Numbered from the stretch's first letter, positions 56,212 to 60,393 are shown. The stretch: DNA of 64,000 nt from Haloarcula rubripromontorii (GCF_001280425.1 NZ_LIUF01000003.1:186001-250000), one strand, 5' to 3'. Notes: generated from the letters alone by a model not told the origin. Numbers and translations: made by a program.

Positions 56212-56634
56212 TTAGGCGTGGCCGTGTTCTCTTGCCCCCTCGCGGATCTTCTGTGCCCGCTTTCGGACCCGTGAGACGTACCGCTCGATTTTCTCCGGTT
56301 TCTCGCCGTAGAACGACGCAGCCCAGTGGACGTCGACGCCCTCCTGAGTGAGGAAGTAAGCGACGAGCGTGTCACGGCCCGCCTGTATGACCGTTGGAGG
56401 TACGCCGCGGTCGCCGGTTCCGGCTTCCTGAAAGCCGTTCACGTCGAAGTACACGTCGGCGTATAGCGTCGCCATCTCGGGGTCAGCAAACGTGATCCCT
56501 TCGTGGTCCGGGGCCTCGAACCGATACCGCGTGTCACCCTCGACTGTCGTTCGCTCGACGATGCGCACGTCGAGGATGTACTCGCGGTAGGCGGAACTGT
56601 CAGTCGATGCAGCAGCGGTGTCTGATTCTGGCAT
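56212..56634 (-). CDS. Uncharacterised haloarchaeal protein beside the cohesin gene
   Basis: A 140-residue cytoplasmic protein. The N-terminal half has a beta-rich pattern (YILDVRIVERTTVEGDTRYR), and the C-terminal half ends with a strongly basic helix EKIERYVSRVRKRAQKIREG that could contact nucleic acid. I do not recognise the family. It lies 18 bases downstream of the cohesin-protein gene on the same strand, so it may be part of that operon. Confidence 0.62.
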   Translation of the reverse strand: MPESDTAAASTDSSAYREYILDVRIVERTTVEGDTRYRFEAPDHEGITFADPEMATLYADVYFDVNGFQEAGTGDRGVPPTVIQAGRDTLVAYFLTQEGVDVHWAASFYGEKPEKIERYVSRVRKRAQKIREGAREHGHA

Positions 56635-56652: not shown

Positions 56653-57402
56653 CTACGGTTGCCGGCTTGTTCTGGCCGCGAGCGCTGCCACCGTGGCGAG
56701 TGAAGCGAGGACCAGCGCTATCGGGAGTGCCCCGTTCGCGCCGGTCGTCGACTGCTCGCCGCCCGTGGAGTTGTCCACTGTGGGTCCTGCGGCATTCGCG
56801 GTACCCGCTGACTCGGCTGTGGGCTCGCTGGCCGGTGACGATGCTTCGGTCGCGGCCGCCGCTGGCTCAGTCATCGCGCCCGGTGATACAGCGAGCGCCG
56901 TCGGCTCGGTCGCCGGCTCGACTGCGCCGCCGCCGTCGGCATCGATTTGGCTCGACGCAACGGTCACCTGCGTCTCGCCGCCGTCGACGCCAGCGAGCTG
57001 GATCGTCGCGAGCGTCACGTCGCTGGCACCGGGTTCGATCTGCCCGTCGAGATCAGCCGCCTCAAGCGTGATTGTCCCGCCGTCTGCGCTAATGACGGGG
57101 TCAGTCGTGAGACTGAGGCTGTCTGGGTAACTCGCGTTTTCGAATCGGGCGACAGCGGGGTCGTCAACTGTGAGTTCGAGCTGGTAGCCCGCCAGTCCGT
57201 CCGGCGCGCTGGTGAGGACGACCGGGACGGCCATCGTTTCACCGGCGGCGACGGAGTCGGTCTCGATGCTGATTGTCGGCGTACTCTGCCCTGCAGTGAG
57301 CGCGGGGACCGTCCCTGCGAGGCAGACGAGCGCGACGAGCGCGAGCAGGATGCCAGCGGCTCGGACGCAACCGCGTATGGAACAAGTGGTGTCGTCGGTC
57401 AT
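56653..57402 (-). CDS. Membrane-anchored cohesin-domain protein
   Basis: A 249-residue surface protein. It has a Sec-type signal peptide (hydrophobic stretch about residues 12-37), a cohesin-like beta-sandwich (about 42-165, with DGLAGYQLELTVDDP and ASYPDSLSLT), a low-complexity Ala/Glu/Ser/Thr/Pro stalk (170-222) and a C-terminal transmembrane helix (ALPIALVLASLATVAALAA) with a short basic tail. The domain is visibly homologous to the cohesin in the PhoX-type protein encoded 43 bases upstream. The anchor and stalk make it a candidate scaffold for a dockerin-bearing enzyme. Confidence 0.82.
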   Translation of the reverse strand: MTDDTTCSIRGCVRAAGILLALVALVCLAGTVPALTAGQSTPTISIETDSVAAGETMAVPVVLTSAPDGLAGYQLELTVDDPAVARFENASYPDSLSLTTDPVISADGGTITLEAADLDGQIEPGASDVTLATIQLAGVDGGETQVTVASSQIDADGGGAVEPATEPTALAVSPGAMTEPAAAATEASSPASEPTAESAGTANAAGPTVDNSTGGEQSTTGANGALPIALVLASLATVAALAARTSRQP

Positions 57403-57445
57403 TGTATTGCTGTATCGAAAGATGGCGGAATCTCGGTTGCGGCCG

Positions 57446-60112
57446 TTAGTTGACCTCTTCGTAGAGCGCCGTCACGTCCGCGAAGTCGAGTTTGCCGTTC
57501 TCGTTGAAGTCGTACGCGCCGGTGTTCAGCTGGACGCTGTCGGAGTCCATGTTCGAGAACAGCACCTGCACGTCCTCGTAGTCGAGGCGGCCGTTGCCGT
57601 TGAGGTCCTCGAAATGGCCGTCGCCGTCTGGATCAGTCGGCGCGTCGTCGCCGACGATCGTTTGCGGGCCGCCCACGACGATACCGTTCCGAGCTTCTGC
57701 CTCGATGGCGTTGCCGTTCTCGTCGTCCATCTGCTCGATTGAGACGGTTAGATCGGTCGTGCCACCGCCGTTGGCGCGGACGTCGAGCGCCGCGAGTTCC
57801 ACGTCCATCGCGCCGGACTGGACGTTTGTATTGACATCGGCGACACGGATCGTCGCCGACGAGCCGTCGTCGCTGATGGAACTCTCGGTGAGTCCGAGCG
57901 CGTCGGGGAAGGAGACGCCGGTGATAGACGCGATTTCCGGGTTCGATACGCTGACGGTGAGTCGAGCGCCGGAGAAGCCAGCGGGGAGCGACGAGGCGGT
58001 CAGCGAGACGGTGCCTGTCGACCCGCTGCCGACCGCGGCGGAGTTGGCGTTGACGACGACGTTGGGCTGATAGACGTAGAGGCCGTCGTTGGGGTACGAG
58101 CGAGCGGGGCCGCCGAAGCCGTCCTCACAGCAGAGTACGCGACCGTCACGCATCGTGTAGACGTTGTCGATGTTTCGGAGCGCATCGTTTGCGTCTTCCG
58201 GGGAGTCGGTGAAGTCGGGGCCAGTGATGACCGGTTCGAGCGTCGAGACGTTGTAGTCTGATTCCAGCACACCGCGGTAGACGACGCCGCCGTCGACGCG
58301 GTCCATCTGGATGTCGCCCTCGTCGTCCGCGAGCGCGTCGTTGAACTCTGAAATGCCGAAGTAGATGAAATCGCCGGGCTGGGAGTCGTCGACGCTGTCG
58401 ACGCCCTCGGCCTTGTTGAACTCGATTGACGCGCCGATTTCCTTGGCGGCCGCGCGGGTCTCCAGAAACGGGATGCGGCGGAGTTCCTCGTCGACACCGT
58501 CGGGGCCGTTCGCCTCGTACTGCTCGGCCCACTCGATGATTTCCTCGTTCGAAATGTAGTTCTGGTTCCCGTTCTCGATGACTTCGAGGTCGGCCTGCTT
58601 GATCGTCTCCTCGGTCACTTCGTCGCCCGCCGCCCAGTCGGCGTGGGCGCTGAGGTAGTCGGCCTGGGTCACGTCGTCGTACTCGGAGATCCAGGACTCG
58701 ACCTCGGCGTTTGTGGCGTGGCCCAGTTCGATCCACTCGATTTCCAGCGGGGTCTGTGCCGGGGAGTTGCGCTGGCCGGCCTCTGCGGCGTTGGCCGCGT
58801 CGTTGGTAATCTTCGGTGCGTACAGCGTCCCGGCGACATCCATGGGGTCCTCGTACTCCGGGATCGGCTCGTCGGCGACGAACTTGTAGATGCCCTTGCT
58901 GTCGCCGTCGGAACAGCCGTAGAGGGTCCGCTGGTCGCCTTCGATGTCGGGGGCCTCCCACGAGGCCCGCCCCATCACGTAGTACTTGACCGCTTCCGGC
59001 TCGTCGGCGGTCGGCTCCCGGAAGTCGACGAAGTAGCCGTACCGGTACGGGTTCGGGTACACGTCGTCAAGCAGCGTCGTCGCGAGGTTCTCGCCGTCGC
59101 CCTGGTCGTCGCGCTCCGCGCCGAGGTAGTACGCGAGGAACTCGACGCCGGTGAGCGCCCAAGAGCCCTGGGCATAGAAGTTCGATTCGAGGTCGCCGTT
59201 CTCCGCGTAGGTCTCGATAGCGCCCGAGATATCGCTGGGGTTCGGTCGGTTCCAGAACTGACACCCGCCGATGAGTCCCTCGCCCGACTCCGCCTCGACG
59301 ATGTCGCTCACCGTCGCCGTCAGACTAACGCGGGGATGTGCGTAGTTCTCCTCGGCAGAAATCATCGTTCCCCACGGACTGAGGTCGCCGTAGCAGTTGA
59401 TCCGCGTCCCGCCGTGTTCGCGGAGCGACTCGGTGTTCGTGAGGTTCATCGCGTTCTCGGTGTCCGCGCTCCACTCGCCGTTCTCGTCCTGGCTGAGCGG
59501 AACCCGCGAGACGCATCCGGGGCTGTTCTCCCAGTTCGTGAACAGGTAGCCCTCGGTCCCCTCGTCGTTGCTCGGGACGAACTGGTTGCAGTCGGGGTTC
59601 GTCGCCGCGCCGCCGTACTGTGTGCCCGCGAAGTTCTCCTGGGTGATGTCCGTCCCGTCGGGCGTCTGAACCACGCCGAGGCGTGCCTCGCCGCCGTTGA
59701 TCGGTTCACGGCCCTGGACGAGAATTTCGTAGTCGCCGGCCGCGGACCGGACCTGTCGCTGTTTCTCTTCGGTGTCCGGAATTCCCACCTCCGGGAAGTC
59801 GTCGTTGCTCCCGTCGAACTCAAACTGGAAGCCGCTGAAATAGCCCACCGCGGCCCGTCCGAACGGTTCGGGATTCTCCCCTTCCGGGTGCTGGAGGCTG
59901 TACAGCAGTGATCCGTCCTCGAAGACGAACGGTCCCGTCACCTCCGCACCGAACGCCGTCGTCGAGAACCGTTTGAGACTCCCGGCGACGCTCGGCGCGC
60001 CCGGTGTGTCTGTCTCTTCGACCTCTTCCCCGCTTGCCACGCCGATGACGCTGGCCCCAAGCGCAGCAGCCACCGATTGTGAAAGTACCTGCCGTCGAGT
60101 GAAATCGACCAT
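57446..60112 (-). CDS. Tat-exported PhoX-type phosphatase with cohesin and dockerin domains
   Basis: An 888-residue extracellular protein. It has a Tat-like signal (MVDFTRRQVLSQSVAAALGA), a DUF839/PhoX beta-propeller (about residues 45-680, with GDLSPWGTMISAEENYAHP and CNQFVPSNDEGTEGYLFTNW), a cohesin domain (685-815) and a C-terminal dockerin (828-888) with two calcium-binding repeats, DLNGNGRLDYEDV and DFNENGKLDFADV. The propeller should hydrolyse phosphoesters, using calcium and iron in the family. The dockerin could dock on the neighbouring cohesin protein. Substrate and partner are inferred. Confidence 0.85.
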   Translation of the reverse strand: MVDFTRRQVLSQSVAAALGASVIGVASGEEVEETDTPGAPSVAGSLKRFSTTAFGAEVTGPFVFEDGSLLYSLQHPEGENPEPFGRAAVGYFSGFQFEFDGSNDDFPEVGIPDTEEKQRQVRSAAGDYEILVQGREPINGGEARLGVVQTPDGTDITQENFAGTQYGGAATNPDCNQFVPSNDEGTEGYLFTNWENSPGCVSRVPLSQDENGEWSADTENAMNLTNTESLREHGGTRINCYGDLSPWGTMISAEENYAHPRVSLTATVSDIVEAESGEGLIGGCQFWNRPNPSDISGAIETYAENGDLESNFYAQGSWALTGVEFLAYYLGAERDDQGDGENLATTLLDDVYPNPYRYGYFVDFREPTADEPEAVKYYVMGRASWEAPDIEGDQRTLYGCSDGDSKGIYKFVADEPIPEYEDPMDVAGTLYAPKITNDAANAAEAGQRNSPAQTPLEIEWIELGHATNAEVESWISEYDDVTQADYLSAHADWAAGDEVTEETIKQADLEVIENGNQNYISNEEIIEWAEQYEANGPDGVDEELRRIPFLETRAAAKEIGASIEFNKAEGVDSVDDSQPGDFIYFGISEFNDALADDEGDIQMDRVDGGVVYRGVLESDYNVSTLEPVITGPDFTDSPEDANDALRNIDNVYTMRDGRVLCCEDGFGGPARSYPNDGLYVYQPNVVVNANSAAVGSGSTGTVSLTASSLPAGFSGARLTVSVSNPEIASITGVSFPDALGLTESSISDDGSSATIRVADVNTNVQSGAMDVELAALDVRANGGGTTDLTVSIEQMDDENGNAIEAEARNGIVVGGPQTIVGDDAPTDPDGDGHFEDLNGNGRLDYEDVQVLFSNMDSDSVQLNTGAYDFNENGKLDFADVTALYEEVN

Positions 60113-60393
60113 GCGAGTGGGGAGTAGCAGTGATTATTAAAGCAGCTTTATAATATTTGTATGATAGGTTTGGGAGCGTTTCGGTTCCCCCTGTTCTGCA
60201 CATACGTCTAACCCGGCGAACATATTATAAATAGGACTGTTTTTTCGGGATACGTACTGTATGACTCCGAGAACGTTCCCTCACGAGCCGGTTCGTACGC
60301 AGCTACTTACCAGTCGGCGAACGGGTCGCTGACGGGGTGGAACAGCCTCCGGTCGGGACAGAAATCGAGCAGGGGAGTCGCCGTAGCCAGCGG
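60113..60393. other. 281-base region with three AT-rich boxes
   Basis: It separates the PhoX-type operon from a DUF-type gene. It contains three TATA-like elements, the strongest TATTATAAATAG at 60223-60234. An ATG 27-32 bases downstream of this box on the plus strand opens a 23-codon frame (60261-60332) that ends immediately. No other gene is apparent. Confidence 0.5.
60134..60141 (-). promoter_or_regulatory. TATA box of the PhoX-cohesin operon
   Basis: TTTAATAA on the minus strand is centred 26 bases before the PhoX-type ATG. A second AT-rich box (60148-60158) and a third (60223-60234) lie further out, so more than one promoter may be used, as in phosphate-responsive genes. Confidence 0.5.

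Follow-up and report, generated by a model that had tools for sequence, protein, structure and literature searches.

In the AF2375/AF2376 pair of Archaeoglobus fulgidus, one protein combines a dockerin with a cohesin, and a further cohesin is encoded by the gene beside it; we know of no phosphatase domain in the cohesin–dockerin proteins of this organism. Specific binding has been reported for archaeal cohesin–dockerin pairs (PMC9012536, citing Bayer 1999 and Haimovitz 2008), and the dockerins of haloarchaeal glycosidases have been proposed to be substrate-binding domains (PMC10963439, PMC13260240). Here we describe a locus of Haloarcula rubripromontorii in which both modules are fused to a PhoX-family phosphatase. 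It lies in a 64,000-nucleotide stretch (GCF_001280425.1, NZ_LIUF01000003.1:186001-250000; hereafter the window, numbered from its first letter), where the gene for PhoX, with its cohesin CohA and its dockerin, is followed by a gene for a second cohesin protein, CohB. We consider it likely that this is a non-cellulosomal cohesin–dockerin system by which haloarchaea keep a phosphorus-scavenging enzyme on their cell surface, with CohA as a second dockerin site.

A phosphatase gene paired with a membrane-anchored cohesin

The original prediction placed a cohesin (residues 685-815) and a C-terminal dockerin on a PhoX-type protein, followed by a gene encoding a signal peptide, a homologous cohesin, a stalk and, at the C-terminus, a membrane helix. 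Its coordinates, reading frames and 43-base gap were exact on re-checking, the two PhoX modules are confirmed by fold matches and conserved calcium loops, and the composition of the second gene holds as well, with CohA and CohB recovering each other by phmmer (57.7 bits, E-value (E) 9e-18). The pattern that the two cohesins were said to share is also present (FPDALGLT..ISDDGSSATIRVAD; YPDSLSLT..ISADGGTITLEAAD). The features of the pair are as follows, with lengths in amino acids (aa) or base pairs (bp).

57446-60112, minus strand: gene for the PhoX-family phosphatase P0001, 888 aa, with a twin-arginine translocation (Tat) signal, PhoX beta-propeller, CohA and dockerin (reading frame and Pfam PhoX match)
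60026-60112, minus strand: Tat-type signal peptide of PhoX, MVDFTRRQVLSQSVAAALGASVIGVASG (twin arginine in the sequence; low-confidence helix in the AlphaFold2 model)
58061-59998, minus strand: PhoX-like domain, aa 39-684 (Pfam profile and alignment to Pseudomonas fluorescens PhoX)
57668-58060, minus strand: cohesin CohA of PhoX, aa 685-815 (homology to CohB; model matches solved cohesins)
57449-57634, minus strand: type I-like dockerin, aa 827-888, with loops D836-D847 and D868-D879 (PF00404, 17.2 bits; three helices in the model; conservation)
57403-57445, no strand: gap of 43 bp between the co-directional PhoX and CohB genes
56653-57402, minus strand: CohB (P0002), a membrane-anchored single-cohesin putative receptor of 249 aa with a signal peptide
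56908-57282, minus strand: cohesin domain of CohB, aa 41-165 (PF00963, 22.6 bits; model of a Natrinema homologue)
56674-56895, minus strand: CohB stalk rich in Thr, Ser, Ala and Glu, and C-terminal membrane helix (helix at about 56674-56730; from the sequence)

Co-conservation and co-loss of the dockerin and CohB

We compared 125 distinct PhoX proteins from relatives and a sample of other haloarchaeal genomes, 85 of which carry CohA and a dockerin and 40 of which lack a dockerin. Full-length orthologues of the window's PhoX occur in eight genomes of the same genus (91-97% identity). CohA and the dockerin are always found together on dockerin-bearing PhoX proteins, and a CohB gene adjoins 75 of the 85 genes. 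Because the two genes stay together in these loci, with CohB always next, downstream and on the same strand, the pairing is well supported and passes the test in related genomes that the original prediction had set for it. The intergenic distance is mostly -4 to 137 bp, and in some species the genes overlap by 4 bp. None of the 40 dockerin-less PhoX genes has a CohB neighbor, except for three tandem paralogues (L081, L090, L091), extra PhoX genes of some species that lack both modules and adjoin a complete PhoX–CohB pair. When dockerin and CohB were compared on a PhoX tree built with FastTree, a phylogenetic pairing test found nine independent pairs, of which a mean of 7.8 agreed and 0.2 disagreed (median p 0.008, range 0.004-0.125).

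Haloarcula pellucida (L017/L085) illustrates joint loss: it retains neither the dockerin nor the CohB gene, CohA has diverged, and a conserved 140-aa gene, found downstream of CohB in the window, directly follows PhoX. At another locus (L025), a dockerin-less PhoX ends in what looks by eye like a PGF-CTERM anchor, as if the docking device were perhaps an alternative to direct anchoring. A PGF-CTERM match is also present in 9 of 31 CohB homologues; the window's CohB (P0002) gave none, and its C-terminal helix is a plain membrane segment. Two further features flank the pair in the window.

60147-60154, minus strand: putative TATA element, ATTATAAA, 35-42 bp ahead of the start of PhoX (same sequence at six Haloarcula-type loci)
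56212-56634, minus strand: the conserved 140-aa neighbor gene downstream of CohB (directly after PhoX in the H. pellucida locus)

Unrelated dockerin genes at seven other loci (L142, L147, L148, L149, L150, L151, L152) likewise adjoin a cohesin gene, so a dockerin–cohesin gene neighborhood may be general in haloarchaea.

Identity of the cohesins and the dockerin

The Pfam cut-offs are 24 bits for PhoX (PF05787), 22.9 for Dockerin_1 (PF00404) and 24.1 for Cohesin (PF00963). The dockerin and CohB scores fall just below these values, and the domains were therefore tested by other means; CohA receives no call when the family profiles are run on P0001. The AlphaFold2 model of P0001 has a predicted local distance difference test score (pLDDT) of 84.9 and a predicted template-modelling score (pTM) of 0.84. 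The best PDB fold matches of this model and of a Natrinema CohB model are solved cohesins (E about 1e-9), with target TM scores mostly of 0.7-0.79 against single-domain cohesins. The matches to the Natrinema model include 6kgc, 3ul4 and 2xdh, the last of which, a non-cellulosomal cohesin from A. fulgidus, is matched by both haloarchaeal cohesins. Fold comparison alone succeeded here; a PDB sequence search with CohB, even as a profile, returned nothing useful. In the dockerin, the calcium-ligand positions 1, 3, 5, 9 and 12 are Asp or Asn in both loops in all 85 homologues, the two loops show internal twofold symmetry, and the P0001 model has helices at 845-853, 858-867 and 877-887. We also considered the possibility that the domains are an artefact of weak hidden Markov model matches, which the fold and conservation results rule out. 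CohA, CohB and the dockerin are real domains despite their sub-threshold single-protein scores.

Real domains need not be partners. They could be separate modules for surface adhesion or substrate binding, as has been suggested for glycosidase dockerins (PMC10963439, PMC13260240), and other haloarchaeal dockerin proteins are indeed large and adhesin-like. The conserved, twofold-symmetric calcium loops speak against this explanation, as do the binding of archaeal pairs reported in PMC9012536 and the tendency of dockerin and cohesin to co-occur and adjoin, also in unrelated dockerin genes (L142, L147-L152, L176-L179). We regard it as very unlikely.

The pair also stands by itself in the genome that contains the window, which is 99.99% complete. 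A dockerin search of this genome down to E 10 recovered a single dockerin, that of PhoX, and cohesin searches recovered CohA and CohB as the only clear cohesins. A marginal further match at C1:626376 (E 0.44) was discarded when a profile scan of the region (L154) showed neither a cohesin nor a dockerin. No multi-cohesin scaffoldin is found at the locus, where each protein has one cohesin, and the genome holds no further clear cohesin. In two other genomes of this genus (G029, G030), clustered surface proteins each have two or three cohesin-like domains and are accompanied by several dockerins (L144, L145); these clusters apparently belong to a different, adhesin-like cohesin–dockerin system.

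Loci without CohB and the specificity of the dockerin

Nine genomes together contain ten PhoX–CohA–dockerin loci that lack a nearby CohB gene, and searches of these entire genomes found no cohesin besides CohA. CohA and the dockerin are nevertheless retained, with intact calcium ligands. Since no other cohesin is found, any cohesin partner of the dockerin in these genomes must be CohA, of the same or another molecule.

The dockerins of the two groups of loci differ at position 10 of segment 1, which in classical type I dockerins is one of the residues used for recognition. This residue (Tyr845 in the window) is Tyr in all 75 proteins with CohB and in 1 of the 10 without, where the residues are Asp in four, Gly in two, Arg in two, His in one and Tyr in one. 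Position 10 of segment 2 (Phe/Tyr) and position 17 of segment 1 (Phe) are unchanged between the groups. At one CohB-less locus (L227), where Tyr has become Asp, a short downstream stretch resembles a CohB remnant without the cohesin (weak matches, 62-78%). The two cohesins are themselves distinct: CohA and CohB fall into separate clades, and at equivalent positions each class has residues of its own, Gly/Ala716 and Arg756-Phe/Val757 in CohA and Tyr/Phe73 and Glu114-Ala115 in CohB. It is plausible that the dockerin has two faces, with CohB and CohA each served by a different one.

The model that we favor is that PhoX is exported folded via Tat and that its C-terminal dockerin, loaded with calcium, would plug into CohB in a salt- and calcium-dependent manner. 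CohB would act as a single cohesin on a stalk, anchored by its membrane helix or, in relatives, by a PGF-CTERM lipid anchor. CohA, being of a different conserved specificity class from CohB, would offer a second dockerin site, through which the docked enzyme could either accept a further cassette enzyme (PhoX, or in other species PhoD, a nucleotidase or a nuclease), building a chain, or close on itself.

Several results weigh against docking on CohB. Individual profile scores fall below the cut-offs, both for P0001 against Dockerin_1 (17.2 bits) and for P0002 against Cohesin (22.6 bits). The ten loci that keep the cassette without CohB indicate that CohB is not required for its persistence. 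The change at Tyr10 corresponds to just three independent losses of CohB, two of them concordant and that in Halogranum not, so this link is suggestive and not proof. Position 17 of segment 2 was rejected as a tracker of CohB, with 66 of 75 against 2 of 10 but no consistent independent pairs. Finally, we used a natural in-frame 3-bp junction between a Natrinema dockerin and CohB, with the stop read as Gly, as input for AlphaFold2; the domains of this read-through were folded (pTM 0.51), and no confident complex was obtained.

The same loci raise another explanation, in which CohA binds in cis to the dockerin of its own PhoX molecule, forming a stabilizing clasp or latch, while CohB serves as a secondary anchor or has no connection with the dockerin. 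The two domains are connected by a short linker and always co-occur, and they are retained in nine genomes without any other cohesin. These genomes are the best support here for self-association, and they support such a clasp equally. A clasp does not account for the presence of CohB beside 75 of the 85 genes and its absence from dockerin-less loci, a relationship with phylogenetically independent support, nor for the conservation of CohA and CohB as separate classes or the invariance of Tyr10 solely where CohB is present. We therefore judge the clasp unlikely and favor docking of PhoX on CohB.

The cassette on other enzymes

Within the window's own genome the CohA–dockerin cassette is seen on PhoX alone. 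In about ten genomes it terminates PhoD-like phosphatases (PF09423), and it is also carried by a 5'-nucleotidase-family protein (L175), by choice-of-anchor I proteins (L166, L168-L170) and by proteins of about 1,150 aa (L176-L179, L183), the last of which each have their own adjacent CohB gene. L176, the only one of the last group to be scanned, has staphylococcal-nuclease and GIFT-like domains, and these proteins possibly break down extracellular DNA. Cassette-bearing PhoD and choice-of-anchor I proteins without an adjacent CohB gene occur in 12 genomes, 11 of which have CohB next to PhoX; in one genome (G272), four cassette enzymes are encoded along with a single CohB. A common origin of the cassette may make this pattern look stronger than it is, but the enzymes themselves are not related to one another, and most of them have phosphorus compounds as substrates.

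A broader and more tentative proposal, which we think slightly less likely than not, is a phosphorus-scavenging analogue of the cellulosome. In it, a small membrane cohesin receptor would recruit PhoX, PhoD, 5'-nucleotidase and the choice-of-anchor I protein by one cassette, CohA would extend the complex, and extracellular DNA, nucleotides and phosphoesters would be degraded at one surface site. The possibly self-polymerizing surface array put forward in the original prediction gains support from the other cassette-bearing phosphorus-scavenging enzymes and from the nine genomes without another cohesin.

A different arrangement is present at another haloarchaeal locus (L181, G297:C1:2389500-2400500), which encodes a 1032-aa protein with five cohesins and a dockerin, two dockerin-bearing proteins with GH5 domains and a 230-aa protein with a single cohesin. 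This cluster is cellulosome-like and, with the five-cohesin protein, has a true scaffoldin.

The PhoX-like domain

P0001 scores 64.9 bits against PhoX (PF05787), well above the cut-off, and the sole PDB match of the family profile is P. fluorescens PhoX (3zwu/4amf; E about 7e-10 to 8e-10). Cys240, Glu255, Glu386 and Asp402 align to Cys179, Glu194, Glu273 and Asp292 of that enzyme, which are metal-ligand residues of its active site. These four positions show no or almost no variation across 54 homologues, and the remaining metal-ligand positions could not be reliably aligned. Asp292 has been named as an active-site residue of PhoX (PMC11098088). By eye, Lys567 of the FNKAEG motif may occupy the place of bacterial Arg385, as in Psip1 (PMC11098088).

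The haloarchaeal protein differs from P. fluorescens PhoX in its added C-terminal cohesin and dockerin and in the order of its propeller. Its N-terminal blade motif (aa 39-82, window 59867-59998) aligns to residues 510-557 of bacterial PhoX, which lie in its C-terminal part (E 1e-4), and the propeller may therefore be circularly permuted. This possible permutation, the distance from characterized PhoX enzymes (profile E 7e-10 against 4amf/3zwu) and the absence of a PhoX structure from the top 50 fold matches of the P0001 model would fit a protein that docks as proposed but is not a phosphatase, or hydrolyzes another substrate. The conserved Cys, Glu and Asp equivalents of the metal ligands, and the presence of the same cassette on PhoD and 5'-nucleotidase proteins, argue instead for phosphatase activity, and we consider a non-phosphatase improbable.

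Comparison with known systems

We found no paper that connects a dockerin to PhoX, or that brings together cohesin and dockerin in a haloarchaeal setting, in a search that covered little subscription literature, which makes novelty provisional. Three aspects appear to be new: the system is coupled to phosphorus enzymes, it is broadly co-conserved with a membrane cohesin dedicated to it, and its cohesins fall into two classes. If correct, our reading would give a widespread archaeal cohesin–dockerin system a clear function beyond polysaccharide degradation, with a surface enzyme assembly that evolved around phosphorus nutrition in hypersaline life. The role of archaeal cohesins and dockerins, a long-standing question, would become directly testable in culturable haloarchaea. 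The natural variants with and without CohB would form a set from which dockerin specificity can be read and would potentially supply plug-and-socket parts that are stable in salt.

The locus resembles the bacterial cellulosome (type I, dual binding mode) in the cohesin fold, in a surface anchor with a cohesin, in several enzymes that share one dockerin type and in a duplicated calcium-loop dockerin with a symmetric segment pair (PMC12484212). It is not a cellulosome, because no scaffoldin is found at the locus; its enzymes target phosphorus compounds instead of polysaccharides, and each has its own cohesin. The planctosome, a hypothetical protease complex of freshwater Planctomycetes (PMC6461901), is similarly non-cellulosomal, with an anchoring cohesin protein and a dockerin–cohesin adaptor, but is bacterial, involves peptidases and is predicted for one lineage, whereas the haloarchaeal system involves phosphatases and is broadly co-conserved. 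The A. fulgidus non-cellulosomal modules share the cohesin fold represented by 2xdh. In haloarchaea, however, a PhoX enzyme carries the dockerin, and the second cohesin is, by our reading, a membrane receptor; this layout is shared by many haloarchaeal genera.

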